From NCBI GenBank assembly GCA_028279405.1, contig JANQNU010000060.1:186001-250000 (forward strand): a stretch of DNA of 64,000 bases. Direction: 5' to 3'. Of this stretch, positions 2,485 through 63,850 are shown piece by piece. The stretch is from Phycisphaerae bacterium. GTDB taxonomy: Bacteria > Planctomycetota > Phycisphaerae > UBA1845 > Fen-1342. The translations under genes were made by a program, and so were the position numbers. Numbering within the stretch: the first letter of the stretch is position 1; every line of letters begins with the position of its first letter. A model generated the notes under the pieces. It had not been told where the DNA came from. It saw nothing but the letters and a program-made list of their open reading frames with translations, and ran no database searches.

Positions 2485-3880
2485 CGCATTCGCGCGGCCG
2501 TTGCCACATGATCTCGACGCCGAGCGGGCGTTGCTCGGCTCGATGCTGCTGACCAAAGAGGCCATCGGCGAGGCGATCGTCGAGCTCGCGGACGCCAGCG
2601 CCGAGGCCTTTTTCCTCGAGAAGCACCAGCGGCTTTTCGAGGTGATGGTCGCGATCTACGACGTCGATCGGCCGATCGACGGCATTTTGATCAAAGACGA
2701 GTTGGAACGTCGGGGGATTTTCGAAAGTCTCGGCGGATACGATTTCCTTGCCGGCTTGTCGGCGGCGGTTCCGCATGCGCTGCGCGCCCGGCACTACGCG
2801 CAGTTGGTTCGGGAAAAGCACTTGCTGCGGCAGCTGATCGGCGCGACGCATCGTGTCATGGAGATTGCGTATGACGACGCGGATCCGGCCGAGCAGATTC
2901 TCGATCGGGCTGAGACCGAGTTGTTCGCGGTGACGCAGCGGCGGGTGACGACCGGCCTCCAGGCGCTGCCCGATCTAATTCGGGAGACTTTTGAGCGGAT
3001 TGAGCTGCACGCCGACGGTGCATTGACTGGAATGAGTACGGGCTTCCTGGAAATGGACGAGCTGACGTGCGGCTTGCAGCCCGCGGAGTTGATCATCGTT
3101 GCGGGTCGGCCGTCGATGGGTAAGACGGCGTTCGGCCTCAACCTGGCCGAGCATATGGCGGTGACCGAAAAGATGCCGGTGTTGTTCTTCTCGCTGGAGA
3201 TGAGCCGCCAGCAAGTGGCGCAGCGCATCCTGTGCAGTCGCGCCAGGGTCAACGCTCACCGCTTGCGGCGCGGTCGGCATTCGCAGGCTGACATCGGACG
3301 TTTGCAGGACACTGCCGACGAGCTGACGGGTGCACCGTTGTTGGTGGACGACTCGTCGAGTCTGACAGTGATGGAGCTGCGGGCGCGCGCTCGAATGGCT
3401 TATCGCAAACATCAGATCCGCGCCGTGTTCGTCGACTACCTGCAATTGATGCGCGCTCCGGGCACGGAGAGCCGGCACTTGGAGGTTGGTGCGATCTCGG
3501 CCGGACTAAAATCGCTCGCCAAGGAATTGGAGATACCGGTGATCGCGATGGCCCAGCTCAACCGGCAGGTCGAGGGCTCCCAGCGCCGCGGTAATCGTCC
3601 GCGGATGAGCGACCTGCGCGAGTCGGGCGCGATCGAGCAGGACGCGGACGTCATCATGCTGCTGCACCGTGAGTCGTACTATCAAACCCCCTCGGACGAC
3701 CCTGAGGTCGGACAGGACAATGCCGCGGAGGTGATCGTTGCGAAGCAGCGCAACGGTCCCACCGACACGATCAAGCTGCACTTCAACAAGCAATACACGC
3801 GCTTCGATAATCACGCGCCAGCAGGCGACTTCGAGCCAGGGCCATATCCAACCGGGGGTGGCAGCGACGCGCCGTTCTAG
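2411..3880 (+). CDS. dnaB: Replicative DNA helicase DnaB
   Basis: Hexameric 5'-3' helicase of the replication fork. 489 residues. The N-terminal domain starts with PHDLDAERALLGSMLL. The RecA-like C domain has a Walker A GRPSMGKT at residues 232-239, FFSLEMSRQQVAQRI, a Walker B VFVDYLQLM and the switch region DLRESGAIEQDADVIMLLHR. No intein interrupts the Walker A or B motifs. The chosen ATG lies within the rplI tail. TTG 2384 is a possible but less likely start. No terminator hairpin was found directly downstream. Confidence 0.97.
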   Translation: MATKPQRTTAERTTPTSNTTERSNSAFARPLPHDLDAERALLGSMLLTKEAIGEAIVELADASAEAFFLEKHQRLFEVMVAIYDVDRPIDGILIKDELERRGIFESLGGYDFLAGLSAAVPHALRARHYAQLVREKHLLRQLIGATHRVMEIAYDDADPAEQILDRAETELFAVTQRRVTTGLQALPDLIRETFERIELHADGALTGMSTGFLEMDELTCGLQPAELIIVAGRPSMGKTAFGLNLAEHMAVTEKMPVLFFSLEMSRQQVAQRILCSRARVNAHRLRRGRHSQADIGRLQDTADELTGAPLLVDDSSSLTVMELRARARMAYRKHQIRAVFVDYLQLMRAPGTESRHLEVGAISAGLKSLAKELEIPVIAMAQLNRQVEGSQRRGNRPRMSDLRESGAIEQDADVIMLLHRESYYQTPSDDPEVGQDNAAEVIVAKQRNGPTDTIKLHFNKQYTRFDNHAPAGDFEPGPYPTGGGSDAPF

Positions 3881-54585: not shown

Positions 54586-54765
54586 AAAACGCCGATTGCG
54601 GTCAGATAATTCGAACGGTATTGGTGCAACGGAGGCTGCACACGGATTTGTTCCGCACAAAGCTGAAGGGGTTTTGGCGAAACAGTCGATGTTTCGAATA
54701 GTAACACTGGAGCCAAAGCGCCCCGATTGAAGCGCTCCCCTTGATGCGGACGGAGTAATACCTTG

Positions 54766-55656
54766 ATGATCACCAAGCGGCGAGGCTTTCTGTACGCGGC
54801 TGGAGCTGTGCTTAGCACGACGTTGGTCGTGTCCTGGGCCCTTGTCAGCAATGCCACCGTTGAAGCGGCGTTCTCTCCCGATCCGGAACCGGCCCTAGCG
54901 GCCTATACCGACCCTGCGGCCCCATCGAGCGGCGGCGGCGGCAGCGGCACGATGTCGATGGCGGACCTGGCCGCGGCGGACCCGTTGCGGTTCACCGAGA
55001 CCGTCCGGGATCGCTTCGACAAGCGCAGTCACGAGTACCGCTGCACGTTGATCAAGCGCGAGCGAATTGGTGGCAAGCTCAAGCCGGAGGAGCACATCGA
55101 GGTCCGCTACCGGTCGGAGCCGCGCGAAACGATTTACATGATCTGGAAGAAGAACGTCGACCAGGTCCGTCGGGCACTGTACATCAACGGCCACCGGGAC
55201 TACGTCAATCGCAAGGGTGAGAAGCTTGCCCGCGTGGAGCCCAACGGCGCGATCGTACGGCTGTTCACGCGCGACGTCATGATCGAGATCGATGGTTCAC
55301 GGGCCCGCAAGGCCAGCCGTCGCAGCATTGCGAACTGCGGTTTTGCCGGGACGTTCCGTTTGCTCGACCGCTTCAATTCGATCGCCTCCAAGAATGGTGA
55401 CCTTGACTACCGTTACGAGGGCGAAGGGACGATCGATGGTCGCCCGACGTTCGTATTGGTGCGATACCTGCCGAAGAAGCGCGGCCGGATCCGCTACCCC
55501 GATGGCAAGATGATTATGCACGTGGACCAGGAGTATCTCGTGCCGACCGCGGTGTTCTCCTACGCCGATCGACAGGGGACGGTGCTTCAGGGAAGCTATC
55601 AGTTCATCAACATCGACATGGACCCGCGTTTCACGGACCGCGACTTCAAGTTCTAG
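54766..55656 (+). CDS. DUF1571 family exported protein
   Basis: 296 residues. The N-terminus has a signal anchor (MITKRRGFLYAAGAVLSTTLVVSW). The DUF1571 region begins near DPLRFTETVRDRFDKRSHEYRC and continues with WKKNVDQVRRALYINGHRD. ATG 54766 is nine codons into a TTG-initiated frame; GGAG lies about ten bases upstream. It has a Gly/Ser-rich linker after the signal. Related to the lipoprotein at 8235 but lacks the lipobox. The transcript ends at a strong terminator. Confidence 0.82.
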   Translation: MITKRRGFLYAAGAVLSTTLVVSWALVSNATVEAAFSPDPEPALAAYTDPAAPSSGGGGSGTMSMADLAAADPLRFTETVRDRFDKRSHEYRCTLIKRERIGGKLKPEEHIEVRYRSEPRETIYMIWKKNVDQVRRALYINGHRDYVNRKGEKLARVEPNGAIVRLFTRDVMIEIDGSRARKASRRSIANCGFAGTFRLLDRFNSIASKNGDLDYRYEGEGTIDGRPTFVLVRYLPKKRGRIRYPDGKMIMHVDQEYLVPTAVFSYADRQGTVLQGSYQFINIDMDPRFTDRDFKF

Positions 55657-55743: not shown

Positions 55744-56115
55744 TCAGCGCGGCTCGCGGGGCAGTTTCTCGATCGCCTCATCGACCGACGCGTAGATTCG
55801 CAGCAGATCGTCGACACGCATCAGATGCAGGGCCCGCAGCACGGTCGGCTGCGGGTTGACCAATGCCAATCGGCCGTTGAGGTCGTGCGCACGTCGATCG
55901 CAGGCAAGCATCAGCGAAATGCCGTTCGTGTTGACGTAATGCAACGCGGCCAGATCGAGCACAAGGTTTGGGGCCGATTCCGTCAGGGAACCCAGCAGTT
56001 GGCGGGCGACGTCTTCTACGCCGCTGAGCCAGTTGCCGCCGCTGATCCGCGCGACGTTGAACGATCCGCGCGTTTCTTGCGCCAGCTGCAACGGTTCCGA
56101 GAGGGCATCGCTCAT
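55744..56115 (-). CDS. STAS-domain anti-sigma antagonist-like protein
   Basis: 123 residues. Pattern PNLVLDLAALHYVNTNGISLMLACDRR and ALVNPQPTVLRALHLM fit STAS. The usual Ser that is phosphorylated by the kinase aligns near Asn/Thr in the VNTNGISL motif, so phosphorylation here is uncertain. The start overlaps the RsbW-type gene stop as ATGA, the usual arrangement of a switch pair. Target sigma factor unknown. Confidence 0.8.
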   Translation of the reverse strand: MSDALSEPLQLAQETRGSFNVARISGGNWLSGVEDVARQLLGSLTESAPNLVLDLAALHYVNTNGISLMLACDRRAHDLNGRLALVNPQPTVLRALHLMRVDDLLRIYASVDEAIEKLPREPR

Positions 56116-56564
56116 GGCATACCTGAATCGGCGCGGTCCTTGAGCATCCAGACCTCGTTCCCCTTGTCGTTGTAATGGATGCTCGTCATGTAACAACGCA
56201 TCAGCATCACCCCGCGTCCACAGGGCCGTTCGAGGTTCTCGTCGAGCGTAGGGTCGGGAACGCTTTCGGGGTCGAACCCGCGACCCTGGTCGCGCACCAT
56301 GATGATGACGCGCTGCGCGTCGACGCGATATCGGACCTGGATCGATTTCTGCGTATCGTTGGCGTGCCCGTGCCGGATGGCGTTGGTGAGGGCCTCTTCC
56401 AAGGCGAGCTTGATGGCAAAGCGGAAGTCGTCGTCGTATCCGTGGCGTTCGATTCCGTCCAGGATCGCTTCCTCACAGCTTCGCACCGCGTCGTAGTCGC
56501 TGGTGAGAGTGAGCTCGATCAGCTCGGGTTCCGAAAGCTGGGGGAATCCCGGGGGCAGCTTCAT
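56112..56564 (-). CDS. RsbW-type anti-sigma kinase (HATPase_c)
   Basis: 150 residues. The GHKL ATP-binding fold is indicated by KLALEEALTNAIRHGHAND, VRDQGRGFDPESVPDP and RGVMLMRCYM. Such kinases phosphorylate an antagonist and hold a sigma factor or other partner. The start ATG 56564 was chosen; an upstream frame start at 56588 is possible. It is coupled to the STAS gene downstream. Another STAS gene lies upstream at 56792-57148. Confidence 0.86.
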   Translation of the reverse strand: MKLPPGFPQLSEPELIELTLTSDYDAVRSCEEAILDGIERHGYDDDFRFAIKLALEEALTNAIRHGHANDTQKSIQVRYRVDAQRVIIMVRDQGRGFDPESVPDPTLDENLERPCGRGVMLMRCYMTSIHYNDKGNEVWMLKDRADSGMP

Positions 56565-56791
56565 AATGGTCGCCCCATCCGGCCCCACGACGGCGGTTTA
56601 GGGCATGCGGGGCACCATCCGGCCGTCTGACGGCCTCGTTTCGGAACACTCGCAGTGTTCGGCGAGGATTGGACACGGAGTTGCGACGCTGCCATCGATA
56701 CCGCCCGAAAACGAGTTCTGTTGGCCTGTCGCGGATTGTATGCCGCTAGCGATGAGGAAGGGAAGTACTGCGATGACGCCATCGAACCGCC

Positions 56792-57148
56792 CTAGAAACC
56801 GACCAGCGCCTCCTCCGTATTGTCGAAGATCTCGAACACCTTGTTCAAGCGGGTGATCTTGAAGACTTCGAAGATTTGCCGGTTGATGTTCGCGAGCCGC
56901 AGCTTGCCGCTGTGCTCCTGGACCTTATTGCGAACGGTAATGAGCATCCCGAGGGCCGAGCTGGTCATATGATCGACGTTTCGGAAGTCGAGCAGCAGCT
57001 TGATGCCCGGCTCGGAATCGATGATGTGGTTCAATTCCTCGCCGATCTCGTAGATATCGAGCTCGTCCAGGATCTTCCGATCGGCGAACTCGACCACCGA
57101 GACCGAGTCCGAACGGCTGACCTTCAGGTGCGTGGACGGTTTTTCCAT
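56792..57148 (-). CDS. STAS-domain anti-sigma factor antagonist
   Basis: 118 residues. The motif RNVDHMTSSALGMLITVRNKV has the two Ser residues at which phosphorylation usually occurs. GKLRLANINRQIFEVFKITRL follows. AGGAGG lies about 11 bases upstream of ATG 57148. It is separated by 227 bases from the RsbW-type gene, so the unit may be transcribed independently, but the three genes form one switch cluster. Confidence 0.88.
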   Translation of the reverse strand: MEKPSTHLKVSRSDSVSVVEFADRKILDELDIYEIGEELNHIIDSEPGIKLLLDFRNVDHMTSSALGMLITVRNKVQEHSGKLRLANINRQIFEVFKITRLNKVFEIFDNTEEALVGF

Positions 57149-57330
57149 TGGGCCACTGCCTCCTGTCGTCGAGCGGCCCTCCAGTTCGGACCGCGGGCGG
57201 CGAATTTCGGTATTCTGCGAGCCGGGCGCGACGGTGTCAAACGCCGATTGGCTTTTGGCACTCCTTGACGTAAAATTCCGATCCCTGTGGGCTGATTTCG
57301 ACGTATTCATCCGTTGGAGACTCCTTCCAA

Positions 57331-57744
57331 GTGCCGGCTGCAAGCGTTCTCGTTGTCGGAAACTGCGATCCGGATCATGCCGGGATCCGTGACATGCTCA
57401 CGGGGACATTCGACGTCCGTGTCGATCGCGCGCGAACCCGGGCCGCCGCCGATGAGCAGGTGACCGGACAGCGCTACGCGCTGATTCTGGTCAATCGCGT
57501 TTTCTTTCATGACGGCGCCTCGGGCCATGAATTCCTCGATTATCTGCGATCGATCGGAAACGAAACGCCGACCATGCTCATCAGCAACTATGCGGATGCC
57601 CAAAAGCAGGCCGTGGCGCGCGGCGCGCGACCCGGATTCGGCAAGGCCGCGCTCCACGAGCGTCAGACGCTGACGTTGCTCGCGGAGTGCCTGCCTATCA
57701 GAGAATCGGCAGGCGGCCGGCCCGCAGTGGAGACGAAAGCGTGA
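57331..57744 (+). CDS. Pseudo-receiver protein
   Basis: 137 residues with a receiver-like fold (VLVVGNCDPDHAGIRDML, then TPTMLISNYAD and GFGKAAL). Asn55 (LILVNRVFF) stands where the phosphorylated Asp is expected, so phosphorylation is unlikely. Lys105 is kept. The start is GTG 57331 with GGAGA about ten bases upstream. The stop overlaps the btaB GTG as GTGA, so the protein is made in step with the lipid enzymes. Confidence 0.75.
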   Translation: MPAASVLVVGNCDPDHAGIRDMLTGTFDVRVDRARTRAAADEQVTGQRYALILVNRVFFHDGASGHEFLDYLRSIGNETPTMLISNYADAQKQAVARGARPGFGKAALHERQTLTLLAECLPIRESAGGRPAVETKA

Positions 57745-58352
57745 CGAGTTCGGTACAGCGGTTCTATCGTTATCACGCCATGATCTACGACAGCACGCGC
57801 TGGATGATCCTGCACGGGCGCCGGGCCGCGGTCGCTCGGATGGGACTCACGCGGGATGCGCGCGTGCTCGAGGTCGGCTGCGGAACGGGTCTGAACTTCC
57901 GGCATGTTTTGCGCCACCTGGGCTCCGGGCCAGGGCGGCTTACAGGCCTCGACTTCTCGGCGGACATGCTCCGCAAGGCCGAGCACCGCCTGCAGCACCG
58001 GGGCTGGGAGAACGTCGACCTTGTCCAGGGTGACGCAACCCAGCTCGATCTACCCGAACGCTACGACGGCATCCTGTTTGCCTACAGCCTCACCATGATT
58101 CCCGATTGGCGCCGCGCTCTGGAATGCGCTGCGGCGCACCTGGCCCCCCACGGGCGGCTGGTCGTGCTCGATTTCGGGCCGTTCGACCGGTGGGGACCGT
58201 TGGGGCCGGCGATGCGCACCTGGCTGCGGCTCAACCACGTAGACACGCGTCAGCCGTACGTGGATTTCATGCGCGGCTTGTTTGACGACTTGGAGACGCA
58301 CTATTGGCTCGGCGGCTACAATTTTACCGCGGTCGGGCGGAGGACGCAGTGA
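57741..58352 (+). CDS. btaB: SAM-dependent methyltransferase, BtaB-like
   Basis: Adds the three N-methyl groups that turn diacylglyceryl-homoserine into the betaine lipid DGTS. 203 residues with the SAM-binding motif LEVGCGTG at 43-50, TGLDFSADMLRKAE and the later VVLDFGPFDRWG. Start GTG 57741 overlaps the upstream stop; GGAG lies eight bases upstream. The identification is strengthened by the DUF3419/BtaA gene directly downstream. A general methyltransferase is the alternative. Confidence 0.82.
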   Translation: MTSSVQRFYRYHAMIYDSTRWMILHGRRAAVARMGLTRDARVLEVGCGTGLNFRHVLRHLGSGPGRLTGLDFSADMLRKAEHRLQHRGWENVDLVQGDATQLDLPERYDGILFAYSLTMIPDWRRALECAAAHLAPHGRLVVLDFGPFDRWGPLGPAMRTWLRLNHVDTRQPYVDFMRGLFDDLETHYWLGGYNFTAVGRRTQ

Positions 58353-59578
58353 CGATGGTCGATGTGCTGGAAATGCCAACTCCTGGCAAGCGAGGCCGCG
58401 TGGAACGCCTCGTTTTTCGCGGGATCGTCTTCAACATGTCCTGGGAAGACCCGGAGATGGACCGCCGAGCGTTCCAGTTGACGTCCGATGATACCGTCAT
58501 CTCGATCACGTCCGCCGGGTGCAATCCGCTGAATTTCCTGTGTGCCGGCCCGAAGCGACTGATCAGCATCGATGGCAATCCGGCGCAGAATGCCGTGCTG
58601 GAACTGAAGCTGGCCGCCATCCGCACACTGGACTATGAAACGTTCTTCGACATCTTCGCTGCTCGTGCCCCGCAGGTGGCCTGCGCGGTGTATCGCGCCA
58701 AGCTGCGGCCGCATCTCTCCGAGCCGGCCCGTCAGTTCTGGGACGGCAACCTCTGGATGCTTCGGCGCAACCTGTACAACTTCGGCCGTATGGGGCTGGC
58801 CTGTCGACTCGTGCGGATGTTGCTGCCGGTACTCGGGATCAGTCGCGCGCGGACCGAGCAGTTCTTCGAGCTGCGAACGCTCGCGGAGCAGAAGGAGTGG
58901 TACGATCTCTACGTCGCGCCGCGATTGTGGGGGCCGGTTGCCGAGCGGCTGTGCAAGTCACGGCTGTTCATGTATCTCTGTGGCGTCCATCCAAACCAAT
59001 ACGATCTGGTACACGACCGGCACAACATCTACGATTTCGTCAAAGAGCGAATCGAGTACGTCCTGACCAAGGTGCCGATCTACGACAACTACTTCCTGAG
59101 TGTGACGGTCACCGGCAAGTTCCGCGGCGATCGTGTGCCGCCGTACCTGCGGGCCGAGAACTTCCAAACGTTGCGCGACAACCTCGACCGCGTGCAGGTC
59201 GTCTACGGTTGGCTCGGACCGTTCCTGGATACCCAGCCGGAGAGTTCCATCAACCGGTTCAACCTGCTCGATATCTTCGATTGGATGCCGCCCGATGTGC
59301 TCGAAGGCACCTGGCGCAGCATCCTCCGAGCCGCGGCGCCGGATGCGATCATGATCTTCCGTTCGGGTAGCTATCAACTCGATCTTCCGGATGCCATCGA
59401 GTCGCAGCTCGTCAGTCACGACGGGCTGGCGAGCGAGCTCTTCGCGATCGACCGCTCCGCGACCTACGGCAGCTTCTACATCAAGTCGCTGAAGGATGCC
59501 CCTGACTCTCGGCCGACGCACCTGCTGAACGGGCATGGTTCGCGAGTTGCTGCGGCCACAGCGGTAGGGGTATCTTGA
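58349..59578 (+). CDS. btaA: Diacylglyceryl-homoserine synthase, BtaA-like (DUF3419)
   Basis: Transfers the 3-amino-3-carboxypropyl group from SAM to diacylglycerol, the first step of betaine-lipid synthesis. 409 residues. Typical DUF3419 features are NMSWEDPEMDRRAF, ISITSAGCNPLNFL, SIDGNPAQN, and YDLVHDRHNIYDFVKERIEYVL later. GTG 58349 overlaps the btaB stop as GTGA with GGAGG five bases upstream; ATG 58355 is an alternative. DGTS commonly substitutes for phospholipids under phosphate limitation. It is followed by a coupled small membrane protein. Confidence 0.88.
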   Translation: MTMVDVLEMPTPGKRGRVERLVFRGIVFNMSWEDPEMDRRAFQLTSDDTVISITSAGCNPLNFLCAGPKRLISIDGNPAQNAVLELKLAAIRTLDYETFFDIFAARAPQVACAVYRAKLRPHLSEPARQFWDGNLWMLRRNLYNFGRMGLACRLVRMLLPVLGISRARTEQFFELRTLAEQKEWYDLYVAPRLWGPVAERLCKSRLFMYLCGVHPNQYDLVHDRHNIYDFVKERIEYVLTKVPIYDNYFLSVTVTGKFRGDRVPPYLRAENFQTLRDNLDRVQVVYGWLGPFLDTQPESSINRFNLLDIFDWMPPDVLEGTWRSILRAAAPDAIMIFRSGSYQLDLPDAIESQLVSHDGLASELFAIDRSATYGSFYIKSLKDAPDSRPTHLLNGHGSRVAAATAVGVS

Positions 59579-59775
59579 ACCGGATCAAGGGACTGCTGCG
59601 GGACGCCTGGTGGGTGCTGCTGATCGTGCTCGTCGCGGCGATCACTTTCGGCATCGTGATTCAGGTCTGGGTCGGTATCGCGACTGCGCTGATCGGCTGT
59701 TCGATGTTCGTCTACTTCGCGATCATCCGCTACGACGATACCGGTAAGGAACGCGAATCCGACACTGACTACTGA
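59575..59775 (+). CDS. Small membrane protein coupled to btaA
   Basis: 66 residues with two transmembrane segments (about 12-32 and 34-50). The TTG start overlaps the btaA stop as TTGA, so it is likely co-translated with it. No family was recognised. It ends in a charged tail. It may anchor or assist the lipid enzymes, but that is inferred from position alone. Confidence 0.6.
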   Translation: MNRIKGLLRDAWWVLLIVLVAAITFGIVIQVWVGIATALIGCSMFVYFAIIRYDDTGKERESDTDY

Positions 59776-59826
59776 GCGCTCGACGCGCAGCGCCGGTCGG
59801 CGTAGCAAGCGGGGTCGGCGGCGCCC

Positions 59827-60345
59827 TCACGGGTTGAGCGCGAACGCGATCTCGCGGGCTTGTTCACGGGTGAAGTTGCCGATGATGTTGACTTGACCGT
59901 TCGGCACTGTTCCCATGATTCGTGGCGCAGCGACCAGTTTGTCGTTTACGAGGATTGCGAGTCGTGAACCGGGATGGCTCGCCGTCGTGCGCTCCAGCAA
60001 CTGGGCGCCGAGTCCGGAGAACTCGACCTGGATGATGTGCTGGGTTCCGCTCGAGAGCAGGGCCGCGGATGCAATGTGATCTTCGGTCAGGGCCGCGGTC
60101 GGCTCGAGGAACAGCGCAACGCCTTGTTCGTCCTGCAACTCGCGGAACCCCTCCTGCGTTTGTTCCTGCGCAACGTGAAAGCGGACGAGTGTCGGTGGTG
60201 CAGGCTCGACGCCAGTCGACGCTTCGGACGCCGTTGTTTCGCAGCCGCTGATCCACAGCAGCGCCGTCGCACAGCCGACCGCCGCGCTCCACGACATGTT
60301 GCGCCGCGTGTTCAATTTACGCCGCCCGATTCGGGTAGCGTCCAC
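59827..60345 (-). CDS. Lipoprotein with SecD P1-head-like domain
   Basis: 172 residues. The N-terminus has a signal and lipobox (LWISGC), so it is likely lipidated. The rest contains LAILVNDKLVAAPRI and GQVNIIGNFTREQAREIAFALNP, which is the pattern of the SecDF P1 head domain, in a protein without the other SecD parts. No secDF gene is nearby. Function is unknown; a protein-binding role is possible by analogy. It converges with the BtaA-linked small gene and lies in the same direction as the aldehyde dehydrogenase upstream. Confidence 0.75.
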   Translation of the reverse strand: MDATRIGRRKLNTRRNMSWSAAVGCATALLWISGCETTASEASTGVEPAPPTLVRFHVAQEQTQEGFRELQDEQGVALFLEPTAALTEDHIASAALLSSGTQHIIQVEFSGLGAQLLERTTASHPGSRLAILVNDKLVAAPRIMGTVPNGQVNIIGNFTREQAREIAFALNP

Positions 60346-62095: not shown

Positions 62096-63850
62096 TCACC
62101 GCGTGTAGTTGAAATTGTCGTGTTGCACGCCGTGGCAGACGAGCGTACACGAGCCGCTGAAGCGTCCCGTATCCACGAACTGTCGCTGTCCCTGCACGAT
62201 CGCGGTGTCGAAGTTGATCAGGTGGCTGTGCTCGCGCGGACTGCCCTCGACGCCGTGCGGCGTATGGCAGGCGCTGCATGGCGAGCGCCCGTCGATGATA
62301 TGCCGGCGATGGAGCGAAAAACTCTCGTCCGCAAGGATCGAATTGCGGTCATGGCAGCGATAACACAGCGCGAATGTGTTCGCTGACTCGATCGTGAAGT
62401 CAGCGGTCTCGTAGCGCGCGACCAGCAGGTTGTCGAACCGCGAGCCGTGCGGTCCGTTGGCAGCGGCGCCGCCGAACCGTCGGCTATCCGGGTTGTCGTG
62501 ACAGTCCTGACAGCTCATCTGCCCCTGGGTGCGTGCCCCCGGGAGGAGGCTCGGATTGTCGACCGTCGACTGCGACGCCGCGATCGCGATCGGATGGGCC
62601 GAGGCGGCGGACGGCTGGAATTGGCGGCGAATGTTCCCGAACGTATCTCGATCGCGAACGATGCGTCGATCGATCGGTACCGGTTTGTCAGCATGACACC
62701 GGAAGCAAACCTCATACGAGAACCGTGCTTTGTCGATCACGCTGCCCTGGATCGAAACGCCTTGCACATGCTCCATTGTCTCGATCCGCGCCGGTCCTTG
62801 TTGGCGGGCGACGTTCGCGGTTCCCGCACCGCTTGCCTGGGCCGCGTGTGGGTTGTGACAGTCCACACAATTGACGTGTGGCGGCATCGACAGCGGGTCT
62901 TCCGCAGGATCGTGCCGGTCGCGGCGCGCAAATCGCGTGCCGTGGCCGCTGCGTTGTCCGATCGCGGACCGGACATCGACGCCGCTGATGCCGTCGTGGC
63001 AGCCGAGGCACAAGTCCTGTGTCGGGCCCCGGAGCAAACGTTCCCGCTGCGGCGCCCCATGCGAAACGTGGCAGGTGCCGCAGGCGTTGTCGGCCAGCGA
63101 CGTGAACGCCAATGGCTCGCCGGTCGTCAGGGTCGCCGGCACGGGCCGACCGCTGTTCGCGTGGGCCGACCGCCGCCATCCGTCGAGCTGGTGGCAGGTC
63201 AGGCACAGCGCGCCGCGCCGGGTCGGCGCCCGGAGGAAGTCGCCCAATTCGTTGTTGTGCGGGTCGTGGCAGGCGGTACATTCCAGCTCGCCGCGGTCGC
63301 CGAGCGGAATGCTGCGTCCTACCTGGTCCGGCGTGCGCAACTGCGGGTCGCGATTGCTCAGCAGCCGATCGAATCGCAGACCGACCGGGTGATCGTCGGA
63401 AAGGTCGTTGGTCAGGTCGCTGGGACCGGTCGGAATGAACGGATGGGTCATGGGGATCGGCTGCTCGCGACTGACCGTCAGCCCCAGTGCGATGCTGCCG
63501 TCGTGGCAGCTCAGGCACAACTTGCTCGCGGCGCCCGGCTGATCGATCCGGGCGTCGATCGTGCTGCTGTTGTAGATCCGATAGTGCGTTCGGGGGTTGT
63601 AGCGGTTCCAGAGCGGCGCGGCCGGGTTCGCGTTGTGCGGCGTATGACAGAATATGCACACGCGCGACTCGTTGATCGCTCGAACGCGGCCCGGACCGAA
63701 ACGCGACAGGTCATGTCGCGAGTTGACCACGCTGTCGTCGGCGAGCGCGACAGACGCCACGATCGCCGAAGGCAGGCCGGTTGCAATGAGCACGAGACAC
63801 GCTTCCAGTCGAGCGCGCCGACGTCTGGTTATTGCACGGGGTCGTTCCAT
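62096..63850 (-). CDS. Secreted multihaem c-type cytochrome (11 CXXCH plus one CXXXCH)
   Basis: 584 residues with a signal peptide (about 1-37). Eleven CXXCH motifs were counted, the first in CIFCH and the last in CSACH; a final CTLVCH has three residues between the Cys and would bind haem only if the spacing is tolerated. Several motifs occur in the doubled CXXCH arrangement. It should carry out periplasmic or extracellular electron transfer; the partner is unknown. The start overlaps the NHL-repeat gene stop by 22 bases, and GGAGAAG lies about six bases upstream. Confidence 0.88.
   Translation of the reverse strand: MERPRAITRRRRARLEACLVLIATGLPSAIVASVALADDSVVNSRHDLSRFGPGRVRAINESRVCIFCHTPHNANPAAPLWNRYNPRTHYRIYNSSTIDARIDQPGAASKLCLSCHDGSIALGLTVSREQPIPMTHPFIPTGPSDLTNDLSDDHPVGLRFDRLLSNRDPQLRTPDQVGRSIPLGDRGELECTACHDPHNNELGDFLRAPTRRGALCLTCHQLDGWRRSAHANSGRPVPATLTTGEPLAFTSLADNACGTCHVSHGAPQRERLLRGPTQDLCLGCHDGISGVDVRSAIGQRSGHGTRFARRDRHDPAEDPLSMPPHVNCVDCHNPHAAQASGAGTANVARQQGPARIETMEHVQGVSIQGSVIDKARFSYEVCFRCHADKPVPIDRRIVRDRDTFGNIRRQFQPSAASAHPIAIAASQSTVDNPSLLPGARTQGQMSCQDCHDNPDSRRFGGAAANGPHGSRFDNLLVARYETADFTIESANTFALCYRCHDRNSILADESFSLHRRHIIDGRSPCSACHTPHGVEGSPREHSHLINFDTAIVQGQRQFVDTGRFSGSCTLVCHGVQHDNFNYTR

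Follow-up and report, generated by a model that had tools for sequence, protein, structure and literature searches.

Four genes lie head to tail on the forward strand of the window, the whole 64,000-nucleotide stretch of DNA analysed here. The first encodes a 137-aa receiver-like protein without the phosphorylation-site Asp, which we call the pseudo-receiver (57331..57744, GTG start), and is supported by its open reading frame (ORF), Pfam, alignments, AF2 models and PDB matches. It is followed by btaB, encoding a putative SAM-dependent N-methyltransferase of 203 aa (57741..58352, GTG start), and btaA, encoding a putative DUF3419 / 3-amino-3-carboxypropyltransferase of 409 aa (58349..59578, GTG start), both called from their ORFs, Pfam matches and identity to Sinorhizobium meliloti proteins; the fourth is an ORF for a hydrophobic 66-aa peptide with probably two membrane segments (59575..59775, TTG start). 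A sequence-only reading had proposed that these four genes are joined by start-stop coupling, and the ORFs confirm three successive 4-nt overlaps on the one strand, namely, GTGA between the receiver gene and btaB, GTGA between btaB and btaA, and TTGA between btaA and the peptide gene. That reading did not include a HATPase-STAS operon that lies immediately upstream of the pseudo-receiver in the opposite orientation. On the reverse strand, this operon encodes an anti-anti-sigma-like STAS-domain protein (56792..57148; PF01740, E 2.1e-13), a HATPase_c_2 protein with an RsbW/SpoIIAB-like anti-sigma kinase domain (56112..56564; PF13581, E 9.4e-29), and a second STAS-domain protein (55744..56115; PF01740, E 1.4e-12) that overlaps the HATPase stop by ATGA. 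Scanning positions 56700-60000 for promoters returned three sigma70-like sites against 0.9 expected, two of which, candidates by consensus match only, form a back-to-back pair spanning 57212-57276 (57240-57212 on the reverse strand and 57248-57276 on the forward strand). Adjoining the STAS/HATPase genes is a gene whose product is assigned to DUF1571 and weakly resembles LolA (54763-55656, forward). Also present in the window are genes for a small protein whose N-terminus is lipobox-like and which carries a stand-alone SecDF P1-head domain (59827-60345, reverse; PF22599, E 9.3e-17), and for a multihaem c-type cytochrome whose CXXCH motifs are doubled and which has an MtrC/MtrF-like match (62096-63850, reverse).

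BtaA matches PF11899 (DUF3419) across the whole protein (residues 23-378, E 3.8e-92) and is 31.4% identical to the S. meliloti protein across 89% of the length. The adjoining BtaB is a class I methyltransferase of the SAM-dependent BtaB type (Methyltransf_25, E 2.4e-20); at the S. meliloti locus the BtaA homologue is likewise followed by a methyltransferase gene, with whose product BtaB shares 39% identity over 180 aa. No solved structure related to BtaA was found at E ≤ 1. The identities of BtaA and BtaB are well supported by these sequence comparisons. Transfer of the head group by BtaA and its triple methylation by BtaB are known biochemistry; judging from homology, BtaA of the window would add the homoserine head from SAM to diacylglycerol, and BtaB would methylate that head three times. 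There is therefore good reason, from homology, to regard btaBA as a putative operon for synthesis of the betaine lipid DGTS, the predicted product. Since btaBA occurs in the window's family (btaA was found in 23 of its 27 genomes), DGTS is predicted for the family as well; among the titles and abstract openings listed by a literature search, none reported it there, and one listed paper mentions both betaine lipids and Phycisphaerae. The named loci related to the window come from planctomycete MAGs, mostly Phycisphaerae, and planctomycete BtaA sequences are already included in the data described in passages of PMC10685587.

According to the parts of PMC3972451 and PMC10685587 available to us, DGTS is made by BtaA and BtaB in S. 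meliloti and Rhodobacter sphaeroides, and the window shares with their operons a DUF3419 BtaA and a SAM methyltransferase BtaB encoded by adjacent, overlapping genes. However, the order is btaB-btaA in the window and btaA-btaB at the S. meliloti locus, and only the window has the upstream receiver, the downstream membrane peptide and the divergent STAS/HATPase genes. Within the window's family btaB lies 5' of btaA, whereas it lies 3' of btaA in the more distant genomes of the class in which both were detected (L056-L062); both domain orders, BtaA-BtaB and BtaB-BtaA, are described among the fused eukaryotic enzymes in the same passages of PMC10685587. One genome of the family (G077) has a second, partial btaA copy of about 110 residues (L055, 5546-5911, reverse), about 3 kb from the intact gene. 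Unlike the known btaA-btaB operon, the window operon gave no evidence of PhoB control. At nine loci, the intergenic regions contained no match to simple patterns for a Pho-box-like repeat, a weak test with patterns derived from other phyla; the 9-mers shared among these regions were mostly GC-rich runs.

The 66-aa membrane peptide, which scores above the cut-off of no Pfam family, adjoins btaA in one of the 23 btaA-bearing genomes of the family, a count on which the sequences downstream of btaA, some of them on contigs that end early, and genome-wide peptide searches agree. Clear homologues (E < 1e-5) are found in three other genomes of the 27, in none of them beside btaA, and one genome with a homologue (G299) has no btaA match. 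A four-row peptide profile matched six of 298 genomes of the class at E ≤ 1e-4, the window's genome included; four of the matching genomes (G080, G115, G121 and G213) lie outside the family and have no btaA match. The expectation in the sequence-only reading that relatives would share the four-gene arrangement is thus contradicted by synteny. Since the four-gene order occurs in the window's genome alone, we rejected a private four-gene betaine-lipid system, and we likewise rejected the peptide as a conserved partner of BtaA because no homologue was found beside btaA. The peptide would rather be a recent, genome-specific addition to the operon.

The pseudo-receiver scores 17.5 bits against PF00072 (Response_reg), below the gathering cut-off of 30.2; 25 of 48 members of its family match PF00072 at E ≤ 1e-3, and NCBIfam returned mainly scattered response-regulator matches on the members. 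The receiver fold is supported by two confident AlphaFold (AF2) models (pLDDT 91.9 and 94.7), by an alignment with the solved receiver 3gl9_B in VIA-align (Z 17.6, rmsd 2.0, 117 residues aligned), and by a Foldseek match to 3eul (E 4.1e-6). None of the VIA-align matches listed was recognised as a pseudo-receiver of known structure, which is uninformative either way. With the GTG at 57331 as residue 1, Asn55 does occupy the phosphorylation position of a canonical response regulator's Asp and Lys105 is retained, as had been read from the sequence; the acidic pair is also lost, being replaced by Gly10-Asn11. We aligned 68 members of our own choosing, namely, eight from the window's family, 40 strong class matches picked for family spread, and 20 of 52 phylum matches. 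In this alignment Cys12, Asp15, Asn55, Arg56, Gly98, Gly102, Gly104 and a Ser or Thr at position 85 are present in 68/68, Gly10 and Lys105 in 67/68, and Asn86 in 65/68; 67/68 have Asn, Gln or His at position 11. All 68 have therefore lost both the phospho-Asp, replaced by Asn and followed by Arg, and the acidic pair, and all carry a Cys in the loop after it. The family motif reads G-[NQH]-C-x-x-D ... N-R ... [ST]-N ... G-x-x-x-G-[FIY]-G-K, with the caveat that the profiles used to collect members were themselves made from members, a procedure biased towards the motif. One divergent member (L169, 4045-4431, reverse) has the sequence Cys-Pro-Cys where the DD site lies, and its Lys105 is replaced by Arg.

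The pseudo-receiver is a member of an undescribed, widely conserved orphan family of planctomycetes, found mostly in genomes without btaA. A profile of the eight members from the window's family matched 178 of 397 genomes sampled from the class at E ≤ 1e-3 and, by hand count, 137 at E < 1e-10, and a 48-row profile matched 52 of 392 genomes sampled from the phylum, all at E ≤ 5.3e-26 and with nothing between that value and the 1e-8 limit. The receiver is nearly always single-copy where it occurs, and plasmid records gave no match. Among the 298 genomes G000-G297, where G000 is the window's own, 111 have a strong receiver match, 28 have btaA (E ≤ 1e-10) and 11 have both (odds ratio 1.1, p 0.84), as counted by hand on the assumption, since the numbers fit, that these genomes are the sample of the btaA search; 98 of the 111 have no btaA match even at E ≤ 1e-3 by the same kind of count. 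In the five genomes outside the window's family that have both genes (G071, G039, G072, G143 and G205), these are separated by about 1 Mb or placed on separate contigs. Neighbours of the receiver vary by lineage; in other families they were named by eye from a crude ORF caller, and the subset checked against Pfam includes an aminotransferase, NfeD, LolA with an MMPL exporter, and aminopeptidase P. In another family (L166, 4402-7646, and also L167) the pseudo-receiver gene overlaps a LolA-like gene by 4 nt, followed by the MMPL exporter gene, again a neighbour of membrane-lipid type.

Within the window's family, the receiver occurs in eight of the 27 genomes, one copy each, and all eight have btaA. 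It lies directly upstream of btaB in six of them, belonging to six genera (G000, G095, G224, G077, G248 and G106), and on a different contig from btaBA in the other two (G302 and G307); in the five linked genomes other than the window's, the three genes are close without the window-type overlap. Such next-door placement of receiver and btaB is found only in this family, and its recurrence in six genera indicates that the coupling is no accident of one genome. On the other hand, 15 of the 23 btaA-bearing genomes have no receiver match, partly perhaps through incompleteness, the MAGs of the family being 62-98% complete. The STAS/HATPase genes are divergent to btaBA in eight of the 23 loci (G000, G306, G089, G239, G298, G106, G304 and G101), two others (G305 and G309) having too little upstream sequence to judge, and divergent to the receiver in three of eight (G000, G106 and G302). 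In one genome without a btaA match (G303; L213, ~3708-3830, forward), a decayed receiver fragment is divergent from STAS/HATPase; this remnant scores 38 bits, has Glu in place of the Lys, and is unrecognisable in its first half. A STAS orthologue (E < 1e-40) occurs in 26 of the 27 genomes, and it is paired with the HATPase in all eight relatives' loci examined away from btaA.

These distributions bear on what the additional genes may do. The sequence-only reading had suggested that they regulate or localise lipid synthesis, in which case the receiver and the peptide would be dedicated parts that control BtaA/BtaB or place them at the membrane. The 4-nt overlaps in the window and the position of the receiver directly 5' of btaB in six genera speak for it, and to this extent the suggestion has partial support; however, the presence of the receiver across the class is independent of btaA, most genomes with a strong receiver match and the majority of btaA-bearing genomes of the family have one gene without the other, and the peptide is nearly always away from btaA, also in genomes without it, so that we regard dedicated parts as quite unlikely. 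The STAS/HATPase genes offer another account, in which btaBA expression is governed from the shared intergenic region by this pair acting as a partner switch, to which the pseudo-receiver would supply input or from which it would take output. In the RsbV/RsbW partner switch, the HATPase phosphorylates the STAS protein and holds a sigma factor. Like the RsbV/RsbW (SpoIIAA/SpoIIAB) pairs, the window pair has STAS and HATPase_c_2 domains encoded together, and its STAS protein has a Ser-Ser-Ala stretch at what we take to be the position of the target Ser. Control of btaBA by this pair would fit its placement beside btaBA and the receiver in part of the family, the receiver remnant in G303 and the back-to-back promoter candidates. 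We consider it doubtful all the same, since nearly all genomes of the family have the pair, usually away from btaBA, and no sigma factor gene was seen at the locus, as distinct from RsbV/RsbW. Moreover, none of the 40 loci examined in the class beyond this family has a match to the window STAS or HATPase (E ≤ 1e-4) closer than about 4 kb to the receiver; one of these loci (L179) has a weak match of the second STAS near the receiver.

The receiver might also be an ordinary switch in disguise if Asn55 were deamidated to Asp, a reaction at the phosphorylation site of a receiver that is discussed in the part of PMC4395418 available to us, and the retained Lys and Ser/Thr would be in keeping with it. 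Against this, the Mg2+-binding acidic pair is Gly followed by Asn, Gln or His in 67/68 members and Cys-Pro in the remaining one, Asn55 itself is invariant, and Arg56 stands next to it; cryptic phosphorylation is thus highly improbable. Normal phosphorylation through Mg2+ and a phospho-Asp is, from the residues present, very unlikely.

The explanation that we consider probable is that btaB-btaA is a DGTS operon that was once part of a divergent ancestral block, that the pseudo-receiver is a switch of a conserved orphan family and not specific to betaine lipids, and that the peptide is recent. The block would have had the order HATPase-STAS <-> pseudo-receiver-btaB-btaA in the ancestor of the family and would later have been broken up differently in each genus. 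We propose one ancestral block because all of its pairwise remnants survive, which makes this the simplest history; the order of events follows from parsimony, the btaA tree (good support for 6 of its 26 inner branches within the family, one outgroup row dropped) being too poorly resolved to prove or date the linkage. As the wider receiver family occurs mostly without btaA, and over half of the family's btaA genomes appear to lack the receiver, a betaine-specific role for it is unlikely, and a lineage-specific link to btaBA is possible. What the linkage makes likely is lineage-specific co-expression instead of a dedicated role, the receiver in the window's family presumably being merely, or additionally, co-transcribed with btaBA. 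As a counterpoint, adjacency to btaB in six genera suggests more than would be expected of a mere passenger, and the 4-nt receiver/btaB overlap, found in the window only, hints at translational coupling.

As to its mode of action, the pseudo-receiver keeps the receiver fold and would most likely act as a phosphorylation-independent interaction switch or a ligand/redox switch. The passages of PMC4395418 available to us give Asn as a common replacement of the phospho-Asp (16%), and those of PMC12632262 describe pseudo-receivers (PsRs) that respond to ligands or to thiol oxidation, the Cys of known redox PsRs being located either at DD+19 or in the linker; the 2025 review (PMC12632262) calls PsR switching a mystery. 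The orphan receiver family shares with these domains the receiver fold, the missing phospho-Asp and the orphan gene, but differs in being a stand-alone domain whose invariant Cys immediately follows the DD site, with an invariant Asn-Arg as well. By analogy, the Cys in the old active-site loop points to a switch that responds to a ligand or to redox state and acts on a partner protein. A more specific proposal, which we offer tentatively and with more doubt than confidence, is that the phosphorylation pocket was rebuilt as a kinase-free sensor of redox state or a small ligand (Cys12, Asp15, Asn55-Arg56 and Lys105), wired through the operon to membrane lipid replacement in the window's family. 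Our literature search found no paper joining planctomycetes with pseudo-receivers and no closely matching paper on planctomycete response regulators, and the string 'planctomyc' does not occur in the main text of the PsR review (PMC12632262). As a discrete, phylum-wide orphan family with the same old active-site residues in all aligned members, these proteins provide a clean system for asking what replaced phosphorylation.
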